Shown here in pieces: positions 17,023 through 37,431 of a stretch of 64,000 nt of DNA (its first letter is position 1; each line of letters begins with the position of its first letter). Source of the stretch: an uncultured Lachnospiraceae bacterium (GTDB taxonomy: Bacteria; Bacillota; Clostridia; Lachnospirales; Lachnospiraceae); contig CAJOMN010000003.1 of NCBI GenBank assembly GCA_905235745.1, positions 1 through 64,000 of the forward strand. Reading direction: 5' to 3'. A model generated the notes under the pieces. It made no database searches. It was given only the letters and a program-made list of their open reading frames with translations, and had not been told where the DNA came from. A program made the position numbers and the translations under genes.

Positions 17023-17024
17023 TC

Positions 17025-18074
17025 ATGCAACTCAATGATTATATTGTTCTTTCCGACAACAATATAATGGATATCATGCGCAAGATTGATAAAAACGCTA
17101 GGGGCGTAGTTTTTGTGTGCGATGATGACAGAAGACTCTTGGGTTCGATCACGGACGGAGACATCCGCAGGTTTATCATTCATTCCGGAAAACTTGATGC
17201 CAGAGCAAAACAAATAATGAAAACAGATCCGATATTTGTTCCGGAGAAGGAAATTGAATCGGCTAGAAGGATCATGAGAATTCGTCAAATTAGTTCGATT
17301 CCGATACTGGATAAAGATCATCGTGTTATAGATATCCATTTTCTTGATGAAAGAAGCATTGTTGTAAAGAAAAAGATAGACTGCCCTGTTGTGATCATGG
17401 CAGGGGGTATGGGAACAAGACTTCAACCATATACAAGTGTTCTTCCCAAGCCATTGATACCGATAGGGGATAAGACTATTACGGAGCACATAATTGAGAG
17501 ATTTCAGAATGCTGGTTGCAGGCATTTTGATATGATTGTCAACTACAAGAAACACTTTATAAAATCATATTTCAGAGATTTAGAAAACAGTCCGGATATC
17601 ATTTTCCATGAAGAAGATGAGTTTCTTGGAACCGCAGGGGGTTTGCGGCTGTTGATGGGGAGGTACAAAGAGTCGTTTTTCATGACAAACTGCGATATTC
17701 TGATCGAAGCGGATTACTCTGAGATCATGGAATATCACAGGAAGAGAGGAAACATTGCAACAATCGTATGTGCTGTTAAGAATATGAAGCTGCCATATGG
17801 AGTGATCAAGACAAGAGATAACGGACAAGTAGATTCGATTCAGGAAAAACCGGATATCACATTGGTCGTTAATACCGGATTCTATGTGTTGACACCGGAT
17901 TTTTTGGATGAAATACCTGAAGATAAGTTCGTTCATATTACGGAAGTACTCCAAACATGTATAAATAAAGGCCTTAAGGTTGGTATGTATCCTGTATCTG
18001 AAGACAATTGGATGGATATGGGACAGATGGATGAACTGCAGAAAATGACTGAAAAACTGGGAGAACTTGGATGA
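17025..18074 (+). CDS. ptmE: CBS-domain sugar-1-phosphate nucleotidyltransferase, PtmE type
   Basis: A 349-residue fusion: two CBS repeats at about 1-115, then a nucleotidyltransferase with MAGGMGTRLQPYTSVLPKPL near residue 124. This order is that of PtmE from Campylobacter, which makes GDP-glucosamine from glucosamine-1-phosphate and GTP and starts the legionaminic acid route. An in-frame TTG at 17019 is possible, but AAAGGAG at 17007-17013 is better spaced for the ATG at 17025. The nucleotide used (GTP or UTP) cannot be read from the sequence. Overlaps the next gene by four bases. Confidence 0.87.
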   Translation: MQLNDYIVLSDNNIMDIMRKIDKNARGVVFVCDDDRRLLGSITDGDIRRFIIHSGKLDARAKQIMKTDPIFVPEKEIESARRIMRIRQISSIPILDKDHRVIDIHFLDERSIVVKKKIDCPVVIMAGGMGTRLQPYTSVLPKPLIPIGDKTITEHIIERFQNAGCRHFDMIVNYKKHFIKSYFRDLENSPDIIFHEEDEFLGTAGGLRLLMGRYKESFFMTNCDILIEADYSEIMEYHRKRGNIATIVCAVKNMKLPYGVIKTRDNGQVDSIQEKPDITLVVNTGFYVLTPDFLDEIPEDKFVHITEVLQTCINKGLKVGMYPVSEDNWMDMGQMDELQKMTEKLGELG

Positions 18075-18727
18075 AGCCGATAGTTATCCTTGGATCCGGC
18101 GGTCAGGCACAGGAACTGGCATGGTTGATCGAGGACAATAACAAAGAAAATCAAGAATGGGATATCTTAGGGTTTGTAGCAAAGGACGATAAACAGACGC
18201 TGCACAAATTTCCTATCCTGGGCGGCGATGAGTGGCTGTTAAACCGAAAAGAGCAGATATATGTAATTTGCGCGATTGGAGATACCTCTCTTCGAGAGAG
18301 TGTAATCTCACAGTATGTCGGTCATGAAAATATATCTTTTCCAACGATCGTGTCAAGACATGCAGTGATTTCTGATACAGCTAAACTGGGAAGTGGTACT
18401 GTAATTTGTGCCGGATGTGTTATTACTACGGATGTTGAAATTGGCGAATATGTGATCTGTAATTCCGGAAGCATCATTAGTCATGAAACAAGGATCGGAG
18501 ATTATGTTACAATGAATGCAGGTGTGAGGATTTCAGGAAACGTATCTGTTGGTGACCGTTCCTATATTGGTGTGAATGCCTGTACTATACAAGGAATAAA
18601 CATTGGTACAGATGTAATGATAGGGGCGGGAGCAAGCGTTATAAGCGATCTTCCTGACCGGTGCACAGCCGTTGGTGTTCCTGCAAAAGTGATAAAACTT
18701 GATGGGAGAAAAGTCGTTGGGTCATAG
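18071..18727 (+). CDS. legH: NeuD/PglD/LegH-like sugar O/N-acetyltransferase
   Basis: A 218-residue protein with an N-terminal PglD-type Rossmann part (IVILGSGGQAQELAWLIED) and a C-terminal left-handed beta-helix made of hexapeptide repeats (IGEYVICNSGSIISHETRIG, GAGASVISDLP, VGVPAKVIK). PglD/LegH acetyltransferases use acetyl-CoA on the 4-amino group of a UDP- or GDP-sugar. Position between PtmE and the synthase supports the LegH role. GGGAG precedes the ATG, and both ends overlap neighbours, so it is co-translated with them. Confidence 0.87.
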   Translation: MKPIVILGSGGQAQELAWLIEDNNKENQEWDILGFVAKDDKQTLHKFPILGGDEWLLNRKEQIYVICAIGDTSLRESVISQYVGHENISFPTIVSRHAVISDTAKLGSGTVICAGCVITTDVEIGEYVICNSGSIISHETRIGDYVTMNAGVRISGNVSVGDRSYIGVNACTIQGINIGTDVMIGAGASVISDLPDRCTAVGVPAKVIKLDGRKVVGS

Positions 18728-19721
18728 TGACAGAGTTTTGATCATAGCTGAGGCCGGCGTTAATCATAACGGAAAGCTGGATATCGCCATGAAACTGGCA
18801 GAGTCAGCTAAGAACTGCGGCGCAGATATCGTAAAGTTCCAAACTTTCAACGTGAACAAACTGGTGTCCAAACATGCACAAATGGCCGAGTATCAAAAGC
18901 AGAACATACATTTAGGTGATACACAGGCAGATATGCTTAATAAGCTTGCTTTAACGAAAGATGATTTCATACAATTGTCTGTCTATTGCAAGAGTATCGG
19001 AATAGGTTTTCTATCTACGCCCTTTGATATTGATAGCGTCAAGTTTTTAAACGGTATATTGGATTTATGGAAAATCCCATCCGGGGAGATCACGAATTAT
19101 CCTTACTTGGTTGAACTTGCCAAAACAGGTAAGGACGTTATCCTTTCTACAGGAATGTCAACACTTGATGAGGTTAGGGAAGCATGGGATGTACTACATG
19201 AGAATGGCGTAGGAGCTGTAACGCTTCTTCACTGTACAACGGAATATCCGGCACCGTATAATGAGGTTAACCTAAAGGCAATGAAAACTCTGCAGGAAAC
19301 ATTCCAATGTCCCGTCGGTTATTCTGATCACACAAAAGGAATAGAAGTCCCGATTGCTGCTGTGGCAATGGGAGCGACGATTATAGAGAAGCATTTTACG
19401 TTGGACAGAACAATGGAAGGCCCTGATCATAAGGCCAGTTTGGAACCTTATGAATTAAAGAGTATGGTAGACTCTATAAGAAACATAGAGTCAGCAATGG
19501 GCACGGGAAAAAAAAGACCTTCTGATTCGGAGATCAAGAATGCAATTGTTGTAAGAAAGAGTATTGTTGCTTCAAGAAGTATTAAAAGCGGAGAGATATT
19601 CAAAGAAGATAATCTTGCTACTAAGCGACCCGGAACCGGTATAAGTCCGATGAGGTGGGATGAAGTTATTGGACTTAAGGCTGACAGAGACTATTTAGAG
19701 GATGAATTGATAGAGATATAG
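18717..19721 (+). CDS. legI: N,N'-diacetyllegionaminate synthase (NeuB family)
   Basis: Condenses a 6-deoxy-diacetamido hexose with phosphoenolpyruvate to the nonulosonic acid. Family marks: IIAEAGVNHNGKLDIAM near the start, KFQTFNV, TPFD, KIPSGE, LLHCTTEYPAP, EKHFTLDR, and a C-terminal SAF/antifreeze-like domain (VVRKSIVASRSIKSGEIF). The TTG at 18717 lies seven bases after GGAGA and gives the usual short lead before the first strand; an ATG at 18702 is in frame but lacks an RBS. About 334 residues. NeuB, LegI and PseI cannot be told apart with certainty by motif; the neighbours point to legionaminate. Confidence 0.88.
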   Translation: MGHSDRVLIIAEAGVNHNGKLDIAMKLAESAKNCGADIVKFQTFNVNKLVSKHAQMAEYQKQNIHLGDTQADMLNKLALTKDDFIQLSVYCKSIGIGFLSTPFDIDSVKFLNGILDLWKIPSGEITNYPYLVELAKTGKDVILSTGMSTLDEVREAWDVLHENGVGAVTLLHCTTEYPAPYNEVNLKAMKTLQETFQCPVGYSDHTKGIEVPIAAVAMGATIIEKHFTLDRTMEGPDHKASLEPYELKSMVDSIRNIESAMGTGKKRPSDSEIKNAIVVRKSIVASRSIKSGEIFKEDNLATKRPGTGISPMRWDEVIGLKADRDYLEDELIEI

Positions 19722-19756
19722 TATGCCGGATGAAATGTGAGCGGGATAAGTAATAT

Positions 19757-20902
19757 ATGAAACGAGTAGCTATTGTTACATCTACCAGAGCTGAATATGG
19801 TCTTCTTTCTAAACTTATAAAGCGAGTGGATGCAGATGACGTGCTCGATCTTGATCTTATTGTTACCGGAACACACTTGTCGCCAAAGCATGGCTATACG
19901 ATAGATGATATTCGTAATGATGGAGTAAAGATATCGCATGAAATTCCAATTCTGGATGACGATAATACGTCCTATGGTATTTCTGTAACAATGTCAAATG
20001 CCATGAAAGGTTTTGCTAAGAGCTTTAATGATGACCGACCGGATATGGCTGTTATCCTGGGAGACAGGACCGAGATGCTTGGGGTAGCTGCTGCTGCGCT
20101 AAACGAAAAAATACCAATAGCACATATACATGGAGGAGAGATTACAGAAGGTGCTGTTGATGATTGTATTAGGCATGCTATTACCAAGATGAGTTATATC
20201 CATTTCACCTCTACGGAAATATATAGACAGCGTGTAATACAAATGGGTGAAGAGCCGGATCGTGTTTTTAATGTAGGTGCATTGGGAGTCGAAAACATCT
20301 TGAATCAAGAATTGATGAGTGAAGATGAGTTTCGAGCTAATACAGGAATTCTGGGCGGAATGAACTATGTTGTCGTCACATTTCATCCGGAAACTTTAGT
20401 TGATGATACAGCTTCAGCTCAAGTTGATGAATTATGTAGCGTCATGAATGCCAGGTCAGATTTCTTCTATCTCATTACCGGGGCAAATTCAGATGTTGGT
20501 GGAGATATTATTAATGATCATTTACGGATGTTTGCCAATGAACATTCAAATGCTATATTTGTTAGAAATCTGGGAATGAAGCGGTATCTTAGTGCTGTTA
20601 AGTATGCTTCATTTGTTATGGGAAATAGTTCGAGCGGAATAATTGAGGCGCCCACGTTAGGAACTCCAACGATTAACATTGGGTTTAGGCAGAAAGGCAG
20701 AATTCACGGACAAAGTGTTATAGATTGTGATCTGAAAAAAGATGATATTCTTTCTGCAATTAACGCAGTATTGAAACTTGACGTATTTGGTATTCACGAG
20801 TTGTACGGAAATGGAAAAACATCTGAAAAAATCGTCAAGATAATAAAGGATACATTAAATAAAAGCATAGAGATTAAGAAAGCATTCTATGATTATCCGT
20901 AG
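19757..20902 (+). CDS. legG: Hydrolysing sugar-nucleotide 2-epimerase (NeuC/LegG)
   Basis: A 381-residue GT-B fold epimerase that removes the nucleotide and inverts C2, giving the 2,4-diacetamido mannose-type substrate for LegI. Seen: VAIVTSTRAEYGLLSKLIK, GDRTEMLGVAAAAL, HIHGGEITEGAVDD, TFHPETL, and GNSSSGIIEAPTLGTPTINIG. All are typical for NeuC/LegG. Located directly after the synthase and before the dehydratase gene, completing the middle of the pathway. Confidence 0.9.
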   Translation: MKRVAIVTSTRAEYGLLSKLIKRVDADDVLDLDLIVTGTHLSPKHGYTIDDIRNDGVKISHEIPILDDDNTSYGISVTMSNAMKGFAKSFNDDRPDMAVILGDRTEMLGVAAAALNEKIPIAHIHGGEITEGAVDDCIRHAITKMSYIHFTSTEIYRQRVIQMGEEPDRVFNVGALGVENILNQELMSEDEFRANTGILGGMNYVVVTFHPETLVDDTASAQVDELCSVMNARSDFFYLITGANSDVGGDIINDHLRMFANEHSNAIFVRNLGMKRYLSAVKYASFVMGNSSSGIIEAPTLGTPTINIGFRQKGRIHGQSVIDCDLKKDDILSAINAVLKLDVFGIHELYGNGKTSEKIVKIIKDTLNKSIEIKKAFYDYP

Positions 20903-20924
20903 TGATTCAGAATAGGTATAGGAA

Positions 20925-21905
20925 ATGAAGAAAATATTAGTTACCGGTGCCGATGGATTCATAGGCAGTCACCTCACGGAAGAGTTGGTTGAAAGGGGAT
21001 ATGATGTAAAAGCGTTTGTTTTCTACAACTCTTTTAATACATGGGGATGGCTTGATAGCCTTGATAAGAACATAATGTATCATGTGGAGATATTTGCGGG
21101 AGATGTTCGTGATCCTCATGGGGTAAAAAAGGCGATGGAAGGGTGTAAAGCTGTATTTCACCTGGCAGCGCTGATAGGCATACCCTTTAGTTATCATTCT
21201 CCGGACGCTTATGTCGACACTAACATTAAAGGAACACTCAATATCCTTCAAGCAGCAAGAGAACTTGAGCTGGAACGTGTTTTGATTACATCAACATCAG
21301 AAGTATATGGTACTGCTCAGTACGTTCCGATAGATGAGAAACACCCGTTCCAGGGACAGTCGCCATATTCTGCCACCAAAATCGGAGCGGACAGACTGGC
21401 GGAGTCGTTTTATCGAAGTTTCAACCTTCCTGTGAGTATTGTGAGGCCCTTTAATACTTACGGTCCCAGACAGTCAGCCAGGGCTGTTATTCCGACAATA
21501 ATATCGCAACTCCTCGCGGGAAGAGAGGAGATCAAACTTGGTTCACTTACACCAACACGAGACTTCAACTATGTAAAAGATACAGCTAACGGCTTCATAT
21601 CCATATATGAGTCAGAGGTTACAATAGGAGAGGAGATAAATATAGCAACAGGTCACGAAGTATCAATAGGGGCTCTGGCAGTAGAGTTGATAAAGCAGAT
21701 CAATCCAAAAGCCATAATAATATGCGATGAACAAAGATTTAGACCCCCAAATAGTGAGGTAAATCGTCTTTTGGGAAGTAATAAAAAGCTTATCGAACTG
21801 ACTGACTGGAAGCAACAGTGGTCATTTGAAGAAGGAATAACAGAGACAATAAACTGGATTAAGAATAATAAATCGACTTATAGAACCGATATATACAATG
21901 TGTGA
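20925..21905 (+). CDS. legB: LegB-type NAD-dependent 4,6-dehydratase
   Basis: Extended SDR of 326 residues with TGADGFIGSHL for NAD binding, HLAALIGIPFSYHSP, TSTSEVYGTA and the catalytic YSATK. The SFNTWGWLDSL loop and the ALIGIPFSY segment are typical of LegB, which acts on GDP-GlcNAc and provides the 4-keto-6-deoxy intermediate for LegC. It is the first sugar-modifying step, but is sixth in gene order. The following 146 bases up to legF are A+T-rich and hold no gene that I can see. Confidence 0.88.
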   Translation: MKKILVTGADGFIGSHLTEELVERGYDVKAFVFYNSFNTWGWLDSLDKNIMYHVEIFAGDVRDPHGVKKAMEGCKAVFHLAALIGIPFSYHSPDAYVDTNIKGTLNILQAARELELERVLITSTSEVYGTAQYVPIDEKHPFQGQSPYSATKIGADRLAESFYRSFNLPVSIVRPFNTYGPRQSARAVIPTIISQLLAGREEIKLGSLTPTRDFNYVKDTANGFISIYESEVTIGEEINIATGHEVSIGALAVELIKQINPKAIIICDEQRFRPPNSEVNRLLGSNKKLIELTDWKQQWSFEEGITETINWIKNNKSTYRTDIYNV

Positions 21906-22051
21906 GGAGAGAGTGCTTCAAGTTCTTCAAGTCACAATATGTTCAATGTCTCCAAGATTCCTAAAAAGAGGGCAATAGAGAAATATAGTAGACAGTAAAC
22001 CGTATTAGCTGTGTTTACGTGTTAACATCATTACGGATAAAACAATATAAA

Positions 22052-22747
22052 ATGAAGATAATAGCAATTATTCCAGCAAGAAGTGGTTCAAAAGGTTTAC
22101 CCAATAAGAATATTATGGAATTGTGTGGTAAACCGTTAATTGCATATTCGGTGGAGGCGGCATTAAGAGCAGAGGTATTTGAAGAAATCATGGTATCGAC
22201 TGATTCGGAAGAATATGCGGATGTTGCAAAGGAATATGGAGCAGAAGTACCATTTCTCAGAAGTAAAAAGAATTCCAGTGATAATGCTAGTTCCTGGGAT
22301 ACGGTATATGAAGTAATTAGTCATTATCATGAGATAAATAGAGAGTTTGATGCATTTGTACTATTACAGCCAACGTCCCCTTTGCGAGATGAAAGAGATA
22401 TTAGAGGTGCAATAGAAGAGTATAATGAAAAGAAGGCAAATACGATCGTATCTGTATGTGAAGCGGAGTATACACCTACATATATGAACATTCTTCCAGA
22501 ATCACTAAGTATGGAGAGTTTCTTTGAGGATCATAAATGGGCTAGAAGACAGGATTTGCCAAAGTATTACAGGTTAAATGGGGCAATATATATGTCCGAT
22601 GTAAAGAGCTTTATGTCCTATAGAGATGTTTACAAGGGAAGGTGTTATGCATACATAATGAATACTACAAATTCAATAGACATAGACTCGTATTTGGATT
22701 TTCTATATGCGGAGGCGGTATTGAAATATCGTGATCGTACATTATGA
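22052..22747 (+). CDS. legF: CMP-legionaminate synthase (NeuA/LegF family)
   Basis: Activates the nonulosonic acid with CTP, the last step before transfer. The 231-residue product begins with IIPARSGSKGLPNKNI, the signature of CMP-acylneuraminate synthetases, and has LLQPTSPLRD and NGAIYMSD. The ATG at 22052 gives the family start; the frame is open from 22019. No good RBS is visible, and base composition turns A+T-rich here, so this gene may have a different history from legB. The next 218 bases (22748-22965) hold only a weak 7-bp hairpin and no gene. Confidence 0.9.
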   Translation: MKIIAIIPARSGSKGLPNKNIMELCGKPLIAYSVEAALRAEVFEEIMVSTDSEEYADVAKEYGAEVPFLRSKKNSSDNASSWDTVYEVISHYHEINREFDAFVLLQPTSPLRDERDIRGAIEEYNEKKANTIVSVCEAEYTPTYMNILPESLSMESFFEDHKWARRQDLPKYYRLNGAIYMSDVKSFMSYRDVYKGRCYAYIMNTTNSIDIDSYLDFLYAEAVLKYRDRTL

Positions 22748-22965
22748 CGTTTTCGTTATTTGATAGTTTTGTGGGTTAGAGATTAATTCAGTACATTACA
22801 GATTGATAGGTTTGAAGTCTTAGAAACCTAGAAAACAAAGAGTATAGAAGTAATCGGAATGCCTAAAGAAGGGATTCACTTGTATAGGATATGAGATTGT
22901 GGTAACAATATATAGCATATATTGTGTAAGTATGAGTCTATTCAGTAGACTTTTGGATTATTTAC

Positions 22966-23934: not shown

Positions 23935-24097
23935 AGCCTACTAATAAAATGTCAATAGTAAATTGAATAATATTTCCAAGGAGAAATAGGTCACACCAAT
24001 GCTCACCTATCATACAGCTTAAACAATGAGAGGTATAAGGCTTAACTGGTTGTTAGGTTACCTAATACCTACAATCGATTTATTAGGAGGAGAAAGT

Positions 24098-24850: not shown

Positions 24851-24874
24851 ATTAATACGGGAGGGAGAGAAGAG

Positions 24875-25999
24875 TTGAACATTGACGAGATTAGTTTTTA
24901 TGCAAACGATGGAATTATTTGTGATAATGACTATATTTGGTACTATGCTAATGAGTTGTCTTCCGTTATACAAGTAGAAAAAAGGACTGGAACAACAAAA
25001 GTTTTGTTCGTAATAAAAGAAGCCTTCGGAAGTTTTTCTTTTAGATCGATTGCAAGATTTAAGGATTATATTTTTGTTTTTCCATTTCGAGGAGATAAAT
25101 ATATCAAGTATGATATAAACAGCAGAACTTACTTATACAAGAAAATACCAAATGAGATTGAAAACTGGAATTGGAGCGCTCGATATTTTCAAGATAGTAC
25201 GTCTTTGTATTTTTATTTTCAGCCGCCATTTATTGTTAGATTTTATTTAGAAACTGAAGATTGGGCTATATACAAATTGGAGGAGTTTATTAATGGGGCT
25301 TCTTATAATGATACAAAGCAATGGCTTGGAGTTGGAGCTTTTTCTTCAGAGAATTACATTTTGTTCCAGTTTTACAATGATAATAAGCTAGTTAGGTTAA
25401 ATCAATTAACAGGTAAAATAAGTATAATAGAGCTGAATTTGCCATATGAGGATTCTTATATAGAAACTATGACCTACAGTGAAGGAGGGGTATGGCTAGT
25501 TTTAAATGATAGAAAAGGAAAAAGTAGGATTATTAAATATGATAGTATTGAGTTTGAAACATATAAGGAAATATGTGCTATTGAGAATGGAGAGTTGAGT
25601 AAAGATAGAACAGTAACGTTTTATTCTCAGATTGTAGTTGGAAGAACTTATTTGTGGCTATTGCCATTTGAATCTGATAGAGTTCTTAAGGTTTCTAAGG
25701 ATGGAAATATGATGGTCACGCCAGAGGGAATTCCTGTTATAAATAGATCATCCTTAAAACCAGTTTGGGGAAGGGCGGGGAATTATAATATAGGAAAGAT
25801 GTTGAACGAAACATACACGAATATGCATATCTGGTCAAATACTATTGTGGAGATTAATATTGATAATGACAACATTGTCAGTTTCGTGCCTATGTCTTTT
25901 GATAGGTCTGATATATGGGAACAGGCGAATTTAGATATCATTCAGGAAAACACATACTACAGTTTAAAGGATTTTTTGATTAGGGAAGTGGGATTGTAA
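24875..25999 (+). CDS. Unknown 374-residue protein, probably beta-propeller
   Basis: No family recognised. The sequence is rich in aromatic residues and short beta strands with repeating patterns such as DNDYIWYYA, FKDYIFVFPF, TSLYFYFQP and GGVWLVLNDRKGKSR, spaced roughly every 45-55 residues, as in a propeller fold. No signal peptide or membrane segment. The start is TTG behind GGGAGGGA. Its stop overlaps the start of the MptE/sialyltransferase-like gene by one base, so the two are translated together and may act on the same glycan. Confidence 0.6.
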   Translation: MNIDEISFYANDGIICDNDYIWYYANELSSVIQVEKRTGTTKVLFVIKEAFGSFSFRSIARFKDYIFVFPFRGDKYIKYDINSRTYLYKKIPNEIENWNWSARYFQDSTSLYFYFQPPFIVRFYLETEDWAIYKLEEFINGASYNDTKQWLGVGAFSSENYILFQFYNDNKLVRLNQLTGKISIIELNLPYEDSYIETMTYSEGGVWLVLNDRKGKSRIIKYDSIEFETYKEICAIENGELSKDRTVTFYSQIVVGRTYLWLLPFESDRVLKVSKDGNMMVTPEGIPVINRSSLKPVWGRAGNYNIGKMLNETYTNMHIWSNTIVEINIDNDNIVSFVPMSFDRSDIWEQANLDIIQENTYYSLKDFLIREVGL

Positions 26000-27171
26000 T
26001 GTATAAGAAACTATATAGAGAAGATTATGTTGATTTAATTAATAAGAAATTAGAAGAGCTAAGTAGAAAAAAAAACATTGCTATATGGGGACTTGGTGAA
26101 TATGCTGAGAAAATAGTGATTTATTCCAATATACTCAAATATGATATCAGATTTTATGTTGATGATAAACGGGGAGGGTTTTTTACGGGAAATACAATAA
26201 ACACATCCAAGGAGATTATATGGAATAATGTTGAAGCCGTGGTGATAACATCCTATTACAAAGGAGAAGAGATAGAACGCTATCTTTATGATAGGATTAA
26301 TTATGAAGGCTTGATAATAAATTTAGGAAGGAAGGATGAGAGCAGAGAATTTTACAAATGTGAATCTAGAGCTGTTAATAGTTTTGACGAAAAGTTTATT
26401 CCAATTCTGTCGAGAAATGTGATATTTAGAGACAGACACTCAGGGGAAAAGTGCATTATTCTAGGAAATGGACCATCACTCAATGATGTTGATTTAAAAA
26501 GATTTAGTCAAAAATCAATTGTGTTTGCAGTTAATAATTATTATAGACAATGTCAGAGAATCCCAGTCAATTACTACGTTGTCGCAGATCCTTTTTATTT
26601 TGATCCAGACTTGTATCATGATTACGGGAAGTTCTTTTATGCGAACATTAAAGAATTAGAACAGGATAACAAAGATATATGTTATTTCTTTCCAGTACAG
26701 TTTGCTGATTATTTGGTGTCAAAAGGAACTCAGTGGCTAAATACATATTATTTTCTTGCGAATAGAGATTGGAATAAAAGAGTGGATAACGATGTGGATT
26801 TAACCAAGGGTATATTTGGAAGATATTCTGTCATCCAGTATTGTGTTCTAATGGCTGTATATATGGGATTTAAAGAAATATATTTGATTGGTTGTGAGGA
26901 GACGTCGATTTATGGGACGTTAGATAATTACATTGATGAGGGATATGCAGAGTATGCATTTGATATTCCTAAAGAACAATTAAACATTATGAAAGAGTAT
27001 GGGAAAAGTACCCCCTTAGAAGATATATTAGTGGGATTTGCGAATATATATAAGGGTTATAAAGAAATGGACCACTTGTGTAAGGCAAAAGAGGTAAAGT
27101 TATATACATGTTCCAAGAGGACTTTAGTCAAGAATATAGAATATCGAGATTATAATGATGTAGTTGGATAA
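25999..27171 (+). CDS. MptE/DUF115-like glycan transferase with N-terminal Rossmann module
   Basis: A 390-residue protein. Residues about 24-105 form the small Rossmann module found in several island proteins (IAIWGLGEYAEKIVI, YVDD). From residue 154 comes ILGNGPSLNDVDL, then FAVNNYYRQC and MGFKEIYLIGCEET. GNGPSL with that layout is shared by MptE-like/DUF115 proteins, by Maf flagellin-glycosylation factors and by GT42 sialyltransferases. With CMP-legionaminate made next door it is the best candidate for the legionaminate transferase; this is inference. A remnant of a second copy follows at 27224. Confidence 0.72.
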   Translation: MYKKLYREDYVDLINKKLEELSRKKNIAIWGLGEYAEKIVIYSNILKYDIRFYVDDKRGGFFTGNTINTSKEIIWNNVEAVVITSYYKGEEIERYLYDRINYEGLIINLGRKDESREFYKCESRAVNSFDEKFIPILSRNVIFRDRHSGEKCIILGNGPSLNDVDLKRFSQKSIVFAVNNYYRQCQRIPVNYYVVADPFYFDPDLYHDYGKFFYANIKELEQDNKDICYFFPVQFADYLVSKGTQWLNTYYFLANRDWNKRVDNDVDLTKGIFGRYSVIQYCVLMAVYMGFKEIYLIGCEETSIYGTLDNYIDEGYAEYAFDIPKEQLNIMKEYGKSTPLEDILVGFANIYKGYKEMDHLCKAKEVKLYTCSKRTLVKNIEYRDYNDVVG

Positions 27172-27223
27172 TAACGAAAAAGAATTAATGCTTCATTTAT
27201 TATGGTCGACATATTGAATTACA

Positions 27224-27292
27224 CTTTATACATGTGCAAATAAAACGTTAGTAAGAGACATTGAATACTGTTCGTTTGATGATGCTGTTTAG
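27224..27292 (+). pseudogene. C-terminal remnant of a paralogue of the preceding gene
   Basis: The frame 27224-27292 reads LYTCANKTLVRDIEYCSFDDAV and a stop. The preceding protein ends LYTCSKRTLVKNIEYRDYNDVVG. The match of 14 in about 22 residues shows that a second, diverged copy once lay here and was deleted except for its tail. It carries no start and is not expected to be made. Confidence 0.8.
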
Positions 27293-27313
27293 CTGGAGAG
27301 GTGTGATGTAAGA

Positions 27314-28267
27314 ATGGTGAGCAAGGTCGAGAGGATTGTATGTTGGGGAATAGGAAGGGAATATAGAAAGATAAAACCAGTTCTTGATAAAGAAATCAAT
27401 CAGGGCACAATTCAAGTTGTTGCTTGTGTCGATAAAGACAAGGGGTTTGGGGGATATGAGTATATAATCCCACCAGATATGCTAGAAGATGTAGAATTCG
27501 ACTATGTAATCATATGTTCTTCAATATATCGGTATGAAATCCGAGATGATATTATTCGGAGAGGAATTAGCGAAGATAGGATAATATATGGGGGATTGCT
27601 TAATGAGAGTGGTTTTGATTTCCTACAGTATAAAAAAAGCGGGTGGTTGAATAATTGCATCATTAATTCGAAATTTAGTGATGATTCATACAAGGATGAA
27701 AAGAGGTCATATAAAGGAAAAAACATAGTTCTTTCTTTGGGAAGAAAAAGTTATATTGGTGAAATGACCTTCGAGAGAGGTGATTTAAGAGATACATTTA
27801 GTTTAAATGTGGGCAATTACTCATGCATTTCTTGGGGCATTCGCGTTGAAATAGGGCTAAATCTAGATCATGATTATCATAGAATAATGAACTATGGTAT
27901 TACCCATTTTGATTCGGAGAATTTGCCTCCCTATGATTATTCACAATCATATCATAGTATTGAAATTGGATCGGATGTTTGGATAGGTCGAGGTAGCGCA
28001 TTAAAAAGTGGAATCCGCATAGGTGATGGGGCTGTTGTGGCTGCCAACAGCAATGTAGTATCAGATGTTGATGATTTTGCTATTGTAGGCGGCAATCCAG
28101 CAAGATTGATTAAGTATCGTTTTGATAGAGATTTGATTGCATCAATTAAAGAAACAAAGTGGTGGGAGTTACCCGAGAGAGAGTTGCTTCGATTTGGGGA
28201 TTTATTTGATGATCCACAACGCTTTGTTGAGAAATTCAAATATATACCGAGTATAGACTCGAGTTAA
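27314..28267 (+). CDS. Hexapeptide-repeat acetyltransferase with N-terminal Rossmann module
   Basis: A 317-residue fusion. Residues 6-90 are the Rossmann module (VCWGIGREYRKI, VDKDKGF). From about 135 a left-handed beta-helix of the xenobiotic/CatB acetyltransferase type follows: GNYSCISWGIRVEIG, IEIGSDVWIGRGSALKSG, VVAANSNVV, IVGGNPARLIKYRF. It should O-acetylate a sugar with acetyl-CoA. GGAGAGGTG lies before the ATG. It differs from the PglD/LegH protein of this island by its XAT-type helix and larger N-terminal part. Confidence 0.82.
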   Translation: MVSKVERIVCWGIGREYRKIKPVLDKEINQGTIQVVACVDKDKGFGGYEYIIPPDMLEDVEFDYVIICSSIYRYEIRDDIIRRGISEDRIIYGGLLNESGFDFLQYKKSGWLNNCIINSKFSDDSYKDEKRSYKGKNIVLSLGRKSYIGEMTFERGDLRDTFSLNVGNYSCISWGIRVEIGLNLDHDYHRIMNYGITHFDSENLPPYDYSQSYHSIEIGSDVWIGRGSALKSGIRIGDGAVVAANSNVVSDVDDFAIVGGNPARLIKYRFDRDLIASIKETKWWELPERELLRFGDLFDDPQRFVEKFKYIPSIDSS

Positions 28268-28385
28268 CAATGATATTCGTATATCCATAACATGTCACCG
28301 CTCATGATGAGTTAGAGCTACTTGAAGCAGAGGCTGTCACGCCGATTATGTGTATGAAAACAAAAGAATAAAATGGGGTAGCGTT

Positions 28386-29417
28386 TTGAAGAAAATATCT
28401 ATAATTACCGTCGTGTTAAATGGCGTGAGTACGATCGATAAAACAATCAGAAGTGTTATTAATCAAGATTATGATAATATTGAATACATAATTATTGACG
28501 GTGGATCGACGGATGGCACGATAGAGATAATTGAAAAATATAGAGACCTGATTGATATCATAATATCAGAACAGGATTCGGGTCTGTACAATGCGATGAA
28601 TAAGGGTATTGCCTTGGCCTCAGGAGAGATTATTGGAATCATTAATAGTGATGACTGGTATGAAGAAGGGGCAATTGCAGAGGTTGTAGAGGCATTTGAA
28701 AAAAAACCGGAAATGGAAATCTTGTTCGGTAATATGAACTATATAATGACTGATGGTAGAATCGTAAAGTATGAACAACCCCCATTTAGGTCATTGTGGC
28801 ATTTGATGTCAGTCAATCATCCGGCAACATTTGTTAAACGAGAAGTTTACGAGAAGAAAGGAGTCTTCGATGAGGATTTCCGGATATCAGGAGATTTTGA
28901 ACTGATGAATCGCTTTTGGAGTTATGGATCAATATTTGGGCATCTAAATAAAACGTTATCTTGTTTTTCACTTGGTGGAATAAGCAATAGCGAAACAGAA
29001 TTAAGAGATGAGGAGAATAGATATATTAGAGAAAAGTATTTTGATAGAGAGTTGTTTGTTGCAGGATGCTTGGAAGATGTAGTAGATAAGGCATTTCCTA
29101 TTTATCTATGGGGAGCAGGTTACGGAGGGAGAATGCTCTCCGGTTTCTTGAGAGATAATAACATAGTTGAAGGTATTATAGATGTGGACTCTGAAAAGTT
29201 GGGGAAGAGATTAAACGGTATTGAGATAATCCGACCGGATGAACTTCCAAATTGTATAGTAAATATCATTATATCAGCATATACAAGAGAAAATGAGATA
29301 AGAGAGCTTATAGAGAAAATATATGAAGACGGTCATATAGTTAAGAGCATTAATGATTGTTATGAGGCATATGAAGAACGATTAGTACTGAAAAATGGTG
29401 AATGTTTGAAATTCTAG
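28386..29417 (+). CDS. Family 2 glycosyltransferase with C-terminal Rossmann module
   Basis: A 343-residue protein: a GT2 GT-A domain (ISIITVVLNG, IIIDGGSTDGT, GLYNAMNKGI, NSDDWY near residue 88 as the DxD region, NHPATFVKR, DFELMNRF) and, from about residue 238, the Rossmann module (IYLWGAGYGGRMLSGFL, IDVDSEK). The TTG at 28386 gives the standard GT2 start and follows GGGG; the frame is open from GTG 28350. It adds a sugar from a nucleotide donor in the cytoplasm. Sugar and acceptor unknown. Confidence 0.82.
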   Translation: MKKISIITVVLNGVSTIDKTIRSVINQDYDNIEYIIIDGGSTDGTIEIIEKYRDLIDIIISEQDSGLYNAMNKGIALASGEIIGIINSDDWYEEGAIAEVVEAFEKKPEMEILFGNMNYIMTDGRIVKYEQPPFRSLWHLMSVNHPATFVKREVYEKKGVFDEDFRISGDFELMNRFWSYGSIFGHLNKTLSCFSLGGISNSETELRDEENRYIREKYFDRELFVAGCLEDVVDKAFPIYLWGAGYGGRMLSGFLRDNNIVEGIIDVDSEKLGKRLNGIEIIRPDELPNCIVNIIISAYTRENEIRELIEKIYEDGHIVKSINDCYEAYEERLVLKNGECLKF

Positions 29418-29457
29418 CAATATCGGGTTGGGTTTATTCCCAAATTGGTGAGCTGAT

Positions 29458-30465
29458 ATGAGAATAGGCATAATAGGATGCGGCCTTATAGGCAATAAAA
29501 GAGCAAATGCTATAAAGGGAAATCACGATATAGTGGCGCTGTGTGATACGGATATCAAAAAAGCAGAGCGATTGAAAGCCCAGCGTGAATTGAGTGATAA
29601 ACTGAATTACTCAAAGGATATAGATATTTTCATTACAGATGACTATAAGGAATTGTGCAATAGGGATCTTGATATTGTTATCGTATCAACAATAAACGCA
29701 AAATTGTCTGAAATCACGTTATATGCAGTTTCAAAGAACATTAATGTGATTGTCGAAAAGCCTGCGGGCATTGATTCAAGAGAAATACTTCCTATTCTGG
29801 ATATTGTAAAAGAAAGAAATGTTAAAGTTAAAGTCGGGTTTAACCACAGGTATCATCCTGCCTTATTAAAAGCACACGAGATATTTGATTCAGGTGTGTG
29901 CGGACCGATTATGTTCATTAGAGGGAGATATGGGCACGGCGGACGCTTAGGATATGATAGGGAGTGGCGGGCGGATGTTTCTCTTTCCGGTGGAGGAGAA
30001 ACTATAGATCAGGGTGTACACCTTATAGATCTTGCTAGATGGTTTATGGGTGATTTTGATATTGTGGAAGGATTTGCAACGACATATTATTGGGATATGC
30101 CGGTAGATGATAATGGTTTCATATCACTTAGGCGGGAAGATGGGAGGGCTGCTTGGCTCCAGGTTAGCTGTACTGAATGGAAGAATATGTTTTCTTTCGA
30201 AATATACTGCAGAGACGTTAAACTGGATGTTGAGGGACTTGGAGGCAGTTATGGTATAGAGACTCTTAAAGTATATTCGATGCTTCCGGAGATGGGTCCG
30301 CCGGACACCACAATATACGAGTTCCCACGAGGAGACGTTTCCTGGGAGATGGAGTTTGACGAGTTTGTTAACGATATAGAAGAAGATCATCCGGTTAGAA
30401 TGGGGGACATAGAAGATGCTTATAAGACACTAAGAATTGTAGAAAAGATTTATGGACGTGAATAG
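29458..30465 (+). CDS. Gfo/Idh/MocA-family oxidoreductase
   Basis: NAD(P)-dependent sugar dehydrogenase family, 335 residues. Seen: IGIIGCGLIGNKRANAI for cofactor binding, VEKPAG with the conserved EKP lysine, GFNHRYHPA, and GGGETIDQGVHLIDLARWFMGD. Paired 12 bases upstream of an SDR gene, an arrangement like the ptm flagellin-modification genes of Campylobacter where an SDR (PtmA) joins the legionaminate pathway. It could oxidise or reduce a nucleotide sugar; the substrate is not known. Confidence 0.85.
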   Translation: MRIGIIGCGLIGNKRANAIKGNHDIVALCDTDIKKAERLKAQRELSDKLNYSKDIDIFITDDYKELCNRDLDIVIVSTINAKLSEITLYAVSKNINVIVEKPAGIDSREILPILDIVKERNVKVKVGFNHRYHPALLKAHEIFDSGVCGPIMFIRGRYGHGGRLGYDREWRADVSLSGGGETIDQGVHLIDLARWFMGDFDIVEGFATTYYWDMPVDDNGFISLRREDGRAAWLQVSCTEWKNMFSFEIYCRDVKLDVEGLGGSYGIETLKVYSMLPEMGPPDTTIYEFPRGDVSWEMEFDEFVNDIEEDHPVRMGDIEDAYKTLRIVEKIYGRE

Positions 30466-30476
30466 AGGGATAGATT

Positions 30477-31355
30477 ATGACCGGAAAGAGGGCTATTATC
30501 ACCGGTGGCTCGAGAGGGCTGGGTTATGAAATTGCAAAGGAATTTGTTCTGTCAGGTGCAAATGTGTGTATCTGTGCCAGAGATGAGCATGAACTTCAAA
30601 ATGCCGTTGAGTCATTATATGAGTTCAGAAGGTACAGGGATCAGAAGATACTGTTTAAGAAATCCGATATAGGAAATACAACTGATATAGATGAATTATA
30701 TGATTATGCAATATCTGATATGAAGGAGATCGACATAGTAGTAAATAATGCGGCGATACAGGGACCGATTGGACTATTTGAACATAATTCGTGGGATGAA
30801 GTCCTGCGTGTATTGGATGTTGACCTTATCGGTGTATTGTACAGTATGCGTAAAGCTGTCAATGTTTTTAAAGAGATTGATATAGCTTCCAACAATAAAA
30901 TGGATAAGTGCATTATCAATATTTCTGGAGGAGGTGCCACTTCGGTAAGACCTAATTTCATGGGATATGCAATAGCAAAGACCGGAGTGGTCAGAGCTAC
31001 AGAGATTTTGGCCAAAGAGACAGAAGAATATGGAATCCGGGTAAATGCTGTTGCTCCGGGAGCCATGAATACCAGAATGATCGATGATATCATCAAGGCG
31101 GGAAAGGATGCCGGTTCTGAATACAAAAAATCTTTGGAGCGCAAAGATGCTGATGATAAGACCCAAAGGAGGGCAGCAAAATGTGTTGCATGGCTTGCTT
31201 CTGAGAGAGCGGCGGGAATAACCGGGCGCCTTATAAGTGCTATGTGGGATGGCTGGGACATCTATTCGGATGAATGTATTAGACAAATAGGGGAAAGTGA
31301 TATATATACGCTTAGACGAATAATACCAAAAGACAGAGGTTATGACTGGGAATAA
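30477..31355 (+). CDS. PtmA-like short-chain dehydrogenase
   Basis: Classical SDR of 292 residues with TGGSRGLG, NNAA, a serine-bearing NISGGG strand and the catalytic YAIAK, then VNAVAPGAMNTRM. The long C terminus ending TLRRIIPKDRGYDWE is not part of the basic fold and is seen in flagellin-modification SDRs such as PtmA; that assignment rests on memory of the family and on the neighbouring genes. Closely spaced after the Gfo/Idh gene, so the two probably act in sequence. Confidence 0.8.
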   Translation: MTGKRAIITGGSRGLGYEIAKEFVLSGANVCICARDEHELQNAVESLYEFRRYRDQKILFKKSDIGNTTDIDELYDYAISDMKEIDIVVNNAAIQGPIGLFEHNSWDEVLRVLDVDLIGVLYSMRKAVNVFKEIDIASNNKMDKCIINISGGGATSVRPNFMGYAIAKTGVVRATEILAKETEEYGIRVNAVAPGAMNTRMIDDIIKAGKDAGSEYKKSLERKDADDKTQRRAAKCVAWLASERAAGITGRLISAMWDGWDIYSDECIRQIGESDIYTLRRIIPKDRGYDWE

Positions 31356-31381
31356 CTTAGCAAGATTGTGGAGGAGACATT

Positions 31382-32623
31382 ATGAAGATAGTTGCACTGG
31401 TTAAGGTCGGAAATGAGAGCGAAATCATTGAATCATTTGTCAGATATAATATGAATTTTATTGATGCGATGGTAATCGTAAGTAGTTGTTGTATAGATAA
31501 CACCTTGATAATTCTTCGGAAGCTTACGGAGGAGGGGTACGATATCCGGGTAAAGGTTGAAACCGATATTGCATACGATGAAAGATATTTAGATAACAAA
31601 TACATGAAGCAGATTATAAATGATGGAGAATTTGATCTTATTGTTCCCCTTGATTCTGATGAATTTATTACAGGGAGTGGTAACCCCAGAGAGATGTTGG
31701 AAAGATTGCCCTTGGATGAGGTTACTATAGTAAAATGGATGAATTATGCAATGTGCGAGGATGATGACTTTACTGAACCATTTATACCTTTTAGACTGAA
31801 AAGAAGAAAGGAAGACTACGCCGGGAATGAAATTACAAAAGTCATTATTCCTGTAGATCTTGCGAAGAAAAAAAACCTGACGATGAATGCTGGCAGACAC
31901 TCAGTTATAGGAAGCGATATTGTGACACGCGAAAACCATGATATCCGAATTGCGCATTATCCTACGATAAGTACGGAGCAGTATAAGAGCATGATTTTCC
32001 AGGAGAGTATTAAGAGCATTGTTAGATACAACATGGGAAATAATGAAGGAGTTCACAAATACAAACAGAGAATCGGACTTGAGAAAGGAGAGGACATATT
32101 TGGACTAGCTAACGATTATGGGTTTAATAAAAACGAAAATTATCACCTGGTAGAGGATCCTTTGGATGTGTCGTATTGTGTTGACGGAAGCTGCGTAATC
32201 AAGTACAGGGATCTGGCCCACTCGGATTCTTTGCTTGAAATATGGCGCACAGGACAATTGATGGCAATTAAGGCGTATATTCTGGAAATTGAAAAGCAAC
32301 TGGATCAGGATTTACCGACAGTTCTCATTTTCGGAGCAGGGAAGGCTGCACAGACTCTGTTTAATGGTGTGGATGACGGGGTTGTTAACATTCTGGCATA
32401 TATAGACAATGATCCGGTCAGGGAACTTAGGATTTTTAACAGAAGGTTGGTGATTCCTGTCGCATATGTGAGGTTTTTCAAATACGATCAGATTGTCATT
32501 TCAAGCACAAAATACTATAACGAAATGTTTTATTTGCTGATTGAGAATGGTGTAGATAAGGATAAGATCAGTGGGGCGGGATATCTACTGGATAAAATGC
32601 AAATAAAAAGGCAAGAAAGATGA
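31382..32623 (+). CDS. GT2-like glycosyltransferase (GT92 style) with C-terminal Rossmann module
   Basis: A 413-residue fusion. The N-terminal part has VKVGNESEIIESFVRYNMNF and VPLDSDEF near residue 88 (DxD metal site), typical of the Glyco_tranf_2_4 group, which resembles GT92. NAGRHSV and IAHYPTIS follow. From residue 313 to the end comes the Rossmann module (VLIFGAGKAAQTLF, AYIDNDP). GGAGG precedes the ATG. The stop overlaps the start of the FkbM gene by four bases, so the two are coupled. Confidence 0.8.
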   Translation: MKIVALVKVGNESEIIESFVRYNMNFIDAMVIVSSCCIDNTLIILRKLTEEGYDIRVKVETDIAYDERYLDNKYMKQIINDGEFDLIVPLDSDEFITGSGNPREMLERLPLDEVTIVKWMNYAMCEDDDFTEPFIPFRLKRRKEDYAGNEITKVIIPVDLAKKKNLTMNAGRHSVIGSDIVTRENHDIRIAHYPTISTEQYKSMIFQESIKSIVRYNMGNNEGVHKYKQRIGLEKGEDIFGLANDYGFNKNENYHLVEDPLDVSYCVDGSCVIKYRDLAHSDSLLEIWRTGQLMAIKAYILEIEKQLDQDLPTVLIFGAGKAAQTLFNGVDDGVVNILAYIDNDPVRELRIFNRRLVIPVAYVRFFKYDQIVISSTKYYNEMFYLLIENGVDKDKISGAGYLLDKMQIKRQER

Positions 32624-33714
32624 TGGAAAACGTACTACTATGGGGAACCGGAAGGGTTGCTCACATGATTCTCAAAGAGTGTCGCACCCTGAATTGTTAC
32701 AACATTTTAGGCGTGGTAGATAATGATGATAAGAAGATCGGGACACTTTTTTTTGGCTTTGCAGTATATTCTCCCGGTATAATCATTGAGAAACGGAGCA
32801 TCATTGACAGAATTGTCATCCTTACAAGATCATATGATGAGATAAAAAGGCAAATTGTCGAAATTGATCCTACGCTGGAAAACCAGATCGAGAATGAGAA
32901 TTATTTTTACAAGCGGAGCATATTGAAAAGGTATTTCTGTTCAAAAGATCCGGAGATCACCGATATTACAAACTACTTACGCGCTCACTCTCTTGACGTT
33001 TTTAACTATGATTTTGTCGACAATTATGAAGCCAGAGAAGATATGATTTGTTATGATAACGATTGCGGATTATACTACAGGGTGGTAAAAGGGTTTAACG
33101 TGTATCTGTCTAGAAAATATAACAGTAGGGAAAGAGCTGCTCATTATTTCAGCAGATTATTGATGGAACAGGACGAAAAATCACCCCACAAATATCTTGA
33201 TGATGATTTTTTTGTTAATAAGGGTGATATAGTTATAGATGTGGGTGTAGCTGAAGGAAACTTTAGTATTGAGGTAATTGAATCAGCAAAAAAAGTATAC
33301 ATGATAGAAGCTGATCCCTTGTGGATTGAAGCATTAAACCATACATTCAATGACTATCGAGATAAGATATGTATAATACAAAAGTATGCAAGTTCATATG
33401 ATGAGGGAGATTTTGCACGTATCGATAGCATTATAAATGAAGATGTTAATTTTATTAAACTTGATATTGAAGGATATGAATACGATGCTCTGAAGGGAGC
33501 GTTTGATATTCTGAATAGATCTGCACCGCTAAAGGTTGCCGCTTGCTGCTATCATAGTGATTTTGATGAAGTATTGATCAGGAGCGAGTTGGATAAACAT
33601 GGTATATCTTGTACGACAACAAAAGGGTATATGTGGTTTCCGTATACGTTCAGGCAAACGTGGGTTTCAACGCAGTTGAACAGAGGAGTAGTGCGGGGAG
33701 TAAAGAAGGAATAG
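32620..33714 (+). CDS. FkbM methyltransferase with N-terminal Rossmann module
   Basis: A 364-residue fusion. Residues 3-90 are the Rossmann module (VLLWGTGRVAHMILKEC, VVDNDDKKIG). From about residue 200 an FkbM-type methyltransferase follows: IVIDVGVAEGNFSIEVIE as motif I, MIEADPLW, and NFIKLDIEGYEYDALKGA, the FkbM signature. It should methylate a sugar hydroxyl with S-adenosylmethionine. A second in-frame ATG at 32623 is possible. Overlaps the preceding gene by four bases. Confidence 0.85.
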   Translation: MMENVLLWGTGRVAHMILKECRTLNCYNILGVVDNDDKKIGTLFFGFAVYSPGIIIEKRSIIDRIVILTRSYDEIKRQIVEIDPTLENQIENENYFYKRSILKRYFCSKDPEITDITNYLRAHSLDVFNYDFVDNYEAREDMICYDNDCGLYYRVVKGFNVYLSRKYNSRERAAHYFSRLLMEQDEKSPHKYLDDDFFVNKGDIVIDVGVAEGNFSIEVIESAKKVYMIEADPLWIEALNHTFNDYRDKICIIQKYASSYDEGDFARIDSIINEDVNFIKLDIEGYEYDALKGAFDILNRSAPLKVAACCYHSDFDEVLIRSELDKHGISCTTTKGYMWFPYTFRQTWVSTQLNRGVVRGVKKE

Positions 33715-33725
33715 CAAGTTTTACT

Positions 33726-34883
33726 ATGGTTAAGCACATAAGTGTTGTAGTACCGGTCTATCACGGAAAACAGTATATAGAGAAACAGATAAAGCAGATA
33801 GAAGAAGCAGCGGCTTGTAGTAATACTGCTGAACCACTTTTCGATATTGAACTGATATTTGCGAATGATGACCCCGGAGAACAGCTAAGAACCAATCTCA
33901 CATCAGCGTTTATTGATATAAAGGTTTTGAATACAGATATTAACCGCGGCGTTCAGGGAGCAAGAATTTACGGACTTGACCATGCATCCGGGGATTATAT
34001 TCATTTTCTTGATCAGGATGATGAGGTATCCTATGATTTCTACAAAAGCCAGCTTGAGAAGATAGGGGATGCCGATCTCATCTATTGCAGGTGTTATAAC
34101 GGAAACAGACAGACATATAATAATGATCGCGTGTTTGAGACTGCGATGGATAAGGGTCATATCTTTAATGCAACTCCGATGATATCACCGGGTCAGGCGC
34201 TGATTAAAAAAAGTGCAATTCCTGATATTTGGAGGAAGAACATATTGACTCATATGGGATCTGATGACCATATGCTTTGGTTGTGTATGTATGCTGAAAA
34301 TGCCAAAGTAGCACTTAATCAGGACATACTGTTCCGGCACGTCATAAATGGTTCGAACTATTCTCTTGATGTTCTCAAAGCTTACGAATCTGATAAGGAA
34401 ATGGCCAAGGTTCTGATAAAAAGTGGGTTGTATGATGCGAATGAGAATAAACTACTAAGAAGTCTTCCGGATAATAACCTGAAGCGGAGATACAGGCCGC
34501 AGAATCATGACCAGATTGTGCTTTATATTCTATCTGATCTGCTTATGGCGGAGGAACATGGAAATTCAGTGGGGGATTATCTTCGGAACATGGGATTAGC
34601 AAAGATAGCTATATACGGAGCCGGGATACTTGGAAGCAGGTTAAAGGGTATTCTTGATAGAAATGGAATCGAGGTTAGATGCTTTATAGATAGGAATGCT
34701 GAATTCATCAGTAGAGATATCCCGATATATACTTTGGAGAGCTTAACAGGAGATTTTGACGGAGTAATCCTGTCTATAATATCCGGAGAGGATATGGTTA
34801 CAGAGGAAATACGAAAGAGGATTTCCGTTCCGGTAATGAGAATAAAGGACATAGTTACAGAATTGATGCTATCGGAGAAATGA
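33726..34883 (+). CDS. Family 2 glycosyltransferase with C-terminal Rossmann module
   Basis: A 385-residue protein: GT2 domain with ISVVVPVYHGKQYIEKQ, ELIFANDD, NRGVQGARIYGLDHA and FLDQDDE near residue 95; then from about residue 293 the Rossmann module (IAIYGAGILGSRLKGIL, FIDRNAE). The frame is open from 33609 inside the FkbM gene, but ATG 33726 gives the usual GT2 start; the RBS GAAGGAA is rather far upstream. Stop overlaps the next ATG by four bases. Confidence 0.8.
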   Translation: MVKHISVVVPVYHGKQYIEKQIKQIEEAAACSNTAEPLFDIELIFANDDPGEQLRTNLTSAFIDIKVLNTDINRGVQGARIYGLDHASGDYIHFLDQDDEVSYDFYKSQLEKIGDADLIYCRCYNGNRQTYNNDRVFETAMDKGHIFNATPMISPGQALIKKSAIPDIWRKNILTHMGSDDHMLWLCMYAENAKVALNQDILFRHVINGSNYSLDVLKAYESDKEMAKVLIKSGLYDANENKLLRSLPDNNLKRRYRPQNHDQIVLYILSDLLMAEEHGNSVGDYLRNMGLAKIAIYGAGILGSRLKGILDRNGIEVRCFIDRNAEFISRDIPIYTLESLTGDFDGVILSIISGEDMVTEEIRKRISVPVMRIKDIVTELMLSEK

Positions 34884-37383: not shown

Positions 37384-37431
37384 GGGAGTTACAAGATGAA
37401 TATTGCCGTTATATTTGCCGGCGGTGCCGGA
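37384..37431 (+). repeat. Direct repeat copy 2, at the intact tarI start
   Basis: Partner of 36415-36462, including GGGGAGTTACAAG and the first codons of tarI copy 2. Confidence 0.85.

Follow-up and report, generated by a model that had tools for sequence, protein, structure and literature searches.

Between positions 18071 and 34883 of the window, our term for the whole stretch of DNA analysed here (bases 1-64000 of contig 3 in the 2.5 Mb, 32-contig genome of an uncultured Lachnospiraceae bacterium), seven proteins of a glycan locus carry a Rossmann-type module of about 90 residues at one end or the other. The domain type is already known; its attachment, gene after gene, to almost all the enzymes of one glycan locus is what we did not find described among the open-licence papers listed in searches with narrow terms. 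The seven copies are listed here with their family matches and expectation values (E).

18077..18340, forward strand: copy A, the PglD_N domain of a NeuD acetyltransferase, gene 18071-18727 (PglD_N 2.2e-10; TIGR03570 4.5e-60)
26071..26340, forward strand: copy B, N-terminal to an MptE-like protein, gene 25999-27171 (MptE-like 7.7e-11, residues 143-299)
27332..27610, forward strand: copy C, N-terminal to a hexapeptide acetyltransferase, gene 27314-28267 (PF22674 C2185-like_N 8.2e-12)
29094..29375, forward strand: copy D, C-terminal to a GT2, gene about 28386-29417 (PF00535 1.1e-29, residues 5-132)
32315..32602, forward strand: copy E, C-terminal to a GT2-like PF13704 protein, gene 31382-32623 (PF13704 1.9e-6)
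32626..32901, forward strand: copy F, N-terminal to an FkbM methyltransferase, gene 32620-33714 (FkbM PF05050 8.6e-7)
34599..34862, forward strand: copy G, C-terminal to a GT2, gene 33726-34883 (PF00535 4.1e-20)

The segments lie where a first-pass annotation of the sequence had placed them, N- or C-terminal as it had said. That annotation described the partners as seven unrelated glycan enzymes; fusion to varied enzymes stands, but Pfam sorts the partners into five classes rather than seven (hexapeptide, two proteins; PF00535, two; PF13704; MptE-like; FkbM), five being the count if PF13704 is kept separate from the two PF00535 proteins with which it otherwise makes three GT2-type partners. 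The module reported in gene 18071 is present, but is simply the normal, expected domain of a standard NeuD (TIGR03570, PglD_N), and the IIxSxxYxxE-like strand described as common to all seven was not seen in this copy. Pfam puts a name on the module in only two of the seven proteins (18071, PglD_N; 27314, C2185-like_N) and recognises the partner alone in the other five; gene 25999, for instance, is MptE-like by Pfam, with nothing in our results to support a GT42-like label for it, and its module, copy B, had no Pfam match.

Hidden Markov models built from five of the six non-NeuD segments found the sixth at rank 1 of 93 for C, D, E and F (E 2e-8, 1.4e-6, 1.4e-7 and 1.8e-6, respectively) and at rank 2 of 93 for B and G (4e-4 and 6e-4), where the NeuD segment came first; the set searched comprised 49 chosen window proteins and their 49 reversed copies, minus the training proteins. 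The six-segment profile in turn placed NeuD (18071) at rank 1 of 92, with E 8e-5. NeuD aside, no window protein or reversed decoy fell below E 0.27 in any leave-one-out run, and the profiles missed the ordinary Rossmann enzymes of the window (MocA at 29458, SDR at 30477 and the epimerase at 20925), which rules out chance Rossmann look-alikes. Given these ranks and the clean decoys, the seven segments are, by sequence comparison, one Rossmann-type family, as the first-pass annotation had proposed; a structure model adds support for one copy, F. Single-sequence comparison, with E values referring to a database of seven sequences, joined the six non-NeuD segments weakly (C-E 2e-6, D-F 7e-6, E-F 1e-4, D-G 1.5e-4, B-F 2e-4), NeuD not falling below 0.028. 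When the bacterium's own genome was scanned at E ≤ 10, 12 matches emerged, of which the six seed copies had E ≤ 2.4e-27, four lay between 8e-5 and 0.004 and two exceeded 0.1. Since the module profile of relatives used below was grown from the window seeds, the leave-one-out runs are the independent test of membership.

We modelled copy F with AlphaFold2, using the six non-NeuD window copies as alignment input, and obtained a confident Rossmann fold in which strands and helices alternate (predicted local distance difference test, pLDDT, 90.5; predicted template modelling score, pTM, 0.83). Foldseek matched this model to 12 PDB entries at E ≤ 0.001, namely 3nkl twice, including rank 1 (E 2.3e-5, template modelling (TM) score 0.68), and Rex ten times (best 3.7e-4), the Rex matches including NAD and NADH complexes; lower in the list came VioB with a TDP-amino-sugar (1.2e-3), WbaP 8t53 (rank 25, E 3.3e-3, TM score 0.62), 2g6t (6.0e-3) and the acetyltransferase domain of PglB (6.0e-3). 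The Rossmann fold expected by the first-pass annotation was thus borne out for the one copy modelled, with 3nkl, which we take to be a PF13727 domain, and Rex on top.

Profile comparisons led to similar relatives. The six-row profile of the window copies matched 3nkl at 2.8e-7 and 2g6t at 2e-4 among PDB sequences, and copy C matched 2g6t at E 5.3e-8; 2g6t is presumably CAC2185 of Clostridium acetobutylicum, with a partner domain that we believe differs from those in the window. By hhalign the closest kin were the CapD central domain (3.8e-15), NeuD_N (1.2e-14) and Rex (3.8e-13), ahead of the more distant MocA (2.6e-6), epimerase (5e-4) and SDR (9e-4), a comparison that gives a ranking only, in that the MocA, SDR and epimerase sets were small (1, 4 and 4 relatives) and the CapD and Rex sets, gathered via the module profile, were favoured. 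By these measures the module belongs, as one branch, to an established group of Rossmann domains that bind nucleotides; the kinship with PglD claimed at the outset holds at superfamily level, with 3nkl, C2185-like_N and Rex about equally close. We consider it unlikely that the module is itself a dehydrogenase, as the name of 3nkl might suggest, because its copies span about 90-100 residues and appear to have no substrate domain of their own.

Despite great divergence, with a mean pairwise identity of about 20% in the family, the residues of the nucleotide-binding signature are largely retained. Among 116 modules, G7 is present in 97%, G9 in 85%, glycine or alanine at position 12 in 76% and D31 in 92%; in the six window copies both glycines and the aspartate form invariant columns, corresponding to a GxG-type loop after strand 1 and an acid ending strand 2. 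A plain GxG occurs within the first 22 residues of 107 of 134 modules. Retention of loop and acid in so strongly diverged a family makes nucleotide binding the likeliest reading. The nucleotide or nucleotide-sugar binding predicted in the first-pass annotation is backed by the signature residues as well as by the relatives.

Identity to copy D ranges from 19 to 32% in the five other copies, and module pairs from the same locus average 19.9% identity (487 pairs) against 19.5% for pairs from different loci (7641), which together rule out recent spread of one copy inside the locus. A tree of 128 modules, drawn from 19 loci, was poorly resolved, with good support for 4 of its 125 inner branches, and on it neither locus (97 changes; shuffles averaged 101, and 13 of 200 needed as few) nor terminus (35 changes; average 35.2, 105 of 200) sorted. 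These alignments give no clear sign of locus-specific matching of modules or of recent copying.

The six-row profile matched 38 of 61 genomes, that of the window included, at 0.01, with matches heaped in single contigs. Twenty such regions, the window and the short match loci L014-L048 yielded 478 different open reading frames (ORFs) of at least 120 residues, and after five rounds of profile building 132 of them contained the module at 1e-4, the next match lying at 1.5e-3. It is placed N-terminally in 73 of 124 non-redundant modules, C-terminally in 37 and mid-protein in nine, eight of which are of CapD or Rex size; the other five lie in short ORFs (133-165 residues; L052:3313-3807, L023:1291-1767, L049:13849-14247, L051:7249-7671 and L060:3-407) that hold the module and little else, some maybe fragments or contig-end pieces and others stand-alone modules.

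Several loci are densely occupied. Counting ORFs of at least 150 residues, the module is on nine consecutive genes of 12 in L056, on 8 of 13 in L052 and on 13 of 20 in L049 and L050, which belong to one contig and have 500 bases in common; L101 has 16 module ORFs in 21 kb, with methyltransferases (4), GT2 (4), radical SAM (2), FkbM, GT1 and TagF-type (1 each) and three family-less partners. The sparse loci L064, L065 and L068 have one module each. We took a census of partners in 94 module proteins (window plus L049-L068; Pfam at 1e-5), for which 25 of 48 families are listed and families may overlap: GT2 (18), FkbM (9), radical SAM (8), DUF4422 (5) and Gly_transf_sug (3) are the commonest among those listed, followed by two each of TagF-type, DUF5672, GT1, LicD, WcbI, hexapeptide and Caps_synth, and single cases of GT-D, Methyltransf_14, GT8, RgpF, pyruvyl transferase and CapD-type (Polysacc_synt_2). 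In the Methyltransf_14 and CapD-type proteins a domain of this kind is probably native, so these need not be new fusions. Across loci and many genera, serial fusion spans well over ten enzyme families.

We wondered whether fusion follows the enzyme or the locus. GT2 searches of six genomes gave 214 matches, of which 150 are listed: inside regions with at least three module matches, 8 of 13 GT2 genes carry the module in the same open frame, against 0 of 137 outside them among the matches listed, and as the regions were defined by the same matches the outside figure is the telling one. A second set comprised 80 GT2 loci from named genomes of many phyla, found by two patterns in the GT2 domain and ranked against the whole copy-D protein, which favours module carriers. 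Four of these loci, L099, L101, L107 and L170 (three titled Lachnospiraceae, one Eubacterium), hold 7, 16, 11 and 7 modules; seven have a single module, in six cases in an ORF of 596-665 residues, which is CapD size; and 69, Roseburia L168 included, showed none, several of the contigs being short and the absences not firm. The matched GT2 itself lies inside a module ORF in three of the 80 (L099, L101 and L107).

A 38-row profile at E ≤ 1e-7, whose counts are lower bounds, matched at least 109 of 245 genomes sampled within the order (59 of 118 genera), and at least 50 of the 245 had three matches or more; in a draw across the phylum at least 90 of 299 genomes were matched, at least 16 of them three times or more, among these 13 from families other than that of the window. 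Single matches were not counted as the phenomenon because many of those listed have Rex or CapD lengths. Recurrence of the module within one locus in other genomes, which the first-pass annotation had put forward as something to look for, is strongly supported by these counts and by L056 and L101, and is wider than that annotation saw. In Lachnospiraceae and relatives the module is the mark of a class of glycan loci and a means of finding them.

Five known domains invite comparison. PF13727 (DUF / 'CoA_binding_3'), found in WbaP-type large monotopic phosphoglycosyl transferases and PglF/CapD-type dehydratases, resembles the module in fold, and the WbaP domain differs in position, sitting between four transmembrane helices and the catalytic domain; the module is terminal, the window copies lying at protein ends and adjoining transferase domains, and it serves many enzyme classes, up to six of them recognised in one locus (L101). 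No Pfam match to PF13727 was found at E ≤ 1 in the seven window proteins. Like the module, PF13727 is accessory to functionally unrelated glycan enzymes according to PMC10942596, where its presence on PglF-type dehydratases is termed puzzling. The same paper reports that UMP, UDP and UTP stabilise the WbaP domain and UDP-Gal has the opposite effect, that full-length WbaP is inhibited by UMP with an apparent half-maximal inhibitory concentration (IC50) of 4.1 µM, and, as the authors' proposal, that the domain senses nucleotides.

PglD_N (PF17836; PglD, NeuD and VioB acetyltransferases) belongs to the same superfamily: copy A is a member (41.4 bits against a cut-off of 23.4), and two of ten isolated modules of relatives also pass the cut-off (L053, 27.7 bits; L059, 25.5). 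The six other window copies fall below the cut-off (copy F, 13.1 bits), and, whereas PglD_N serves one enzyme type in PglD, N-terminal to a left-handed beta-helix acyltransferase acting on an NDP-amino-sugar, here only A and C are on hexapeptide enzymes and B and D-G are elsewhere. C2185-like_N (PF22674) takes in copy C (45.7 bits against a cut-off of 27), with L101:13965 (26.3 bits) and L054 (23.5) near it, but none of the ten isolated modules passes; copies B, D, F and G have no match, and copy E reaches 13.9 bits (E 0.125), below the cut-off. Methyltransf_14 (PF08484), the C-terminal domain of sugar C-methyltransferases and presumably the part that holds the dTDP-sugar, matches four of the ten at E ≤ 1 and passes one (24.1 bits against 23.5); to our knowledge it is confined to one enzyme type, and a single protein of the 94 is such a methyltransferase, whose match may be its native domain. 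The Rossmann domain of Rex is a close structural match; Rex is a DNA-binding repressor, in contrast to the module partners, which have no known DNA-binding part.

In the best explanation, in our view, this Rossmann module, from the group of PglD_N, C2185-like_N and the PF13727 domain, has been joined to one end or the other of most transferases and modifying enzymes in a type of variable, probably surface-glycan, locus found in the bacterium's order. It would most likely bind a nucleotide sugar by its nucleotide, or else the nucleoside mono- or diphosphate (NMP or NDP) product; binding could tune the attached enzyme to supply and product build-up, a feedback sensing like that proposed for the WbaP domain, or could anchor the NDP-linked substrate as in VioB/PglD. 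That the module is such a non-catalytic domain, sensing or anchoring the nucleotide of nucleotide sugars, is an argument by analogy whose chances of being right and wrong we judge to be about equal. Fusion that depends on the locus and not on the partner fits a ligand common to the whole pathway, and the presence of one domain on so many different sugar-building enzymes of neighbouring genes suggests that a single part for sensing or handling may serve an entire surface-sugar pathway.

Beyond the favouring of the CapD and Rex sets in hhalign, several results weigh against a ligand of this kind. Ordinary NAD(P) dehydrogenases are interspersed in the Foldseek list (amine dehydrogenase 2.1e-3, biliverdin reductase 2.9e-3), and amine and amino-acid dehydrogenases and biliverdin reductase recur among the Foldseek and profile matches; the six-row profile matched 7xdu, titled amine dehydrogenase, at 1.5e-5 among PDB sequences and WbaP at only about E 0.6; and one isolated module of relatives passes the NAD_binding_7 and F420_oxidored cut-offs. 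As dehydrogenase-type families and structures match too, kinship does not favour nucleotide sugars over NAD(P). In addition, 27 of the 134 modules have no plain GxG in their first 22 residues, a few of them looking like cut or shifted starts, so that some copies need not bind nucleotide.

The redox alternative, in which the module would bind NAD(H) as Rex does and couple glycan synthesis to the redox state of the cell, gains from the Rex structures, some with NAD or NADH, that fill 18 of Foldseek ranks 3-22, and from the Rex-like lengths of many single module-profile matches in genomes. The top structural and sequence match is nonetheless 3nkl, whose name is that of a nucleotide-sugar enzyme; VioB and WbaP are among the matches as well, and the association with glycan loci points to nucleotide sugars; we regard redox or energy sensing as quite unlikely. 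Docking, which the first-pass annotation had also suggested, would have the modules bind each other or a common scaffold and hold the enzymes of a locus in one complex, nucleotide binding being secondary or lost. The nucleotide loop is the centre of conservation, though docking by itself would not require it; same-locus modules are no more alike than others, slight evidence against docking specific to a locus, and the poorly resolved tree groups modules by neither locus nor terminus. Yet the module sits like an address tag on nearly every enzyme of some loci, whatever their chemistry and at either end (L056, L101), and in WbaP, a relative, this domain provides most of the contacts between the chains of the dimer, according to PMC10942596. 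We hold docking to be possible, and compatible with nucleotide binding, though on balance unlikely.

A passive fusion, in which a stabilising or solubility domain would have spread by frequent recombination of glycan loci without a common function, would suit the very divergent modules and the copies that have no GxG. It sits poorly with the retention of the glycine loop and D31 in 76-97% of the 116 copies, column by column, with the contrast between GT2 genes inside and outside module regions in the six genomes, among the matches listed, and with the finding of the matched GT2 in a module ORF in only three of the 80 GT2 relatives; we think it improbable. Returning to a nucleotide-binding module, a bolder version would make it a pathway-wide address, with a multi-enzyme assembly line that builds and decorates the glycan gathering intermediates or enzymes via a common nucleotide handle. 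We consider this a long shot; if true, the module would be to carbohydrates what carrier and docking domains are to polyketide synthases. None of the papers listed in searches of open-licence literature with narrow terms described this module family or its serial fusion. Two questions become testable: can nucleotide levels, read by accessory Rossmann domains, coordinate an entire pathway, and do such fused enzymes act as an assembly?

Other features of these loci bear on the glycan itself. In the upstream part of the locus lies a block of sugar-synthesis genes.

15880..22747, forward strand: nonulosonate (legionaminic-acid-like) block (Pfam for 15880, 17019 and 20925; NeuD by TIGR03570)

Its members include a DegT aminotransferase, a CBS-nucleotidyltransferase, NeuD and a dehydratase/epimerase, and presumably also NeuB, NeuC and a CMP-sugar synthetase, which we take to make up a nonulosonate (legionaminic-acid-like) pathway; against the relatives' module profile, NeuD alone in the block fell below E 0.1. 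The nonulosonate genes raised the idea of a flagellin glycosylation locus, which we set aside: in nine genomes the flagellin matches lay on other contigs, none of the 45 among the matches listed being on a contig with a multi-copy module locus, although several of these contigs are short drafts, for which the two may still be close on the chromosome. Since flagellin matches lie off the multi-copy module contigs, a capsule or wall glycan seems likelier than flagellin.

Radical SAM proteins are regular members of module loci (8 of the 94 module proteins, and two more in L101, at L101:1317-2462 and L101:2395-3666, one with a SPASM domain). Among 63 scanned neighbours without the module in L049-L067 there are AMP-binding, LuxE-type acyl-protein synthetase, TPP-enzyme, asparagine-synthase, glutamine-synthetase and PEP-utiliser families, a hint that the glycan may be decorated with unusual acyl or amide groups. 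In the source genome, two more module proteins, one C-terminal and one N-terminal, lie at C1:385723-387891, not far from GT2 genes at C1:396-400 kb, and may form another module locus of smaller size. In the window itself, a 374-residue protein with no Pfam match at 1e-5 lies at 24875-25999, between a methyltransferase and the MptE-like gene.

Downstream of the fusions come IspD-like, epimerase and TagF-like genes. A candidate eighth copy lies in the TagF-like protein of gene 34880.

34880..35269, forward strand: possible degenerate eighth copy, N-terminus of a TagF-like protein, gene 34880-36430 (E 5e-5, profile of relatives' modules)

This profile hint was not borne out by hhalign (probability 23) or AlphaFold (pLDDT 36.5); TagF-like proteins of relatives do have clear modules (L056:7717-9321, L101:17257). 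The window has two IspD-like nucleotidyltransferase genes, in regions 10500-13081 and 37396-40693, one adjoining a ribulose-phosphate epimerase and a zinc dehydrogenase and the other an epimerase and a TagF-like protein, neighbourhoods that we take to be teichoic-acid-type CDP-alditol genes.

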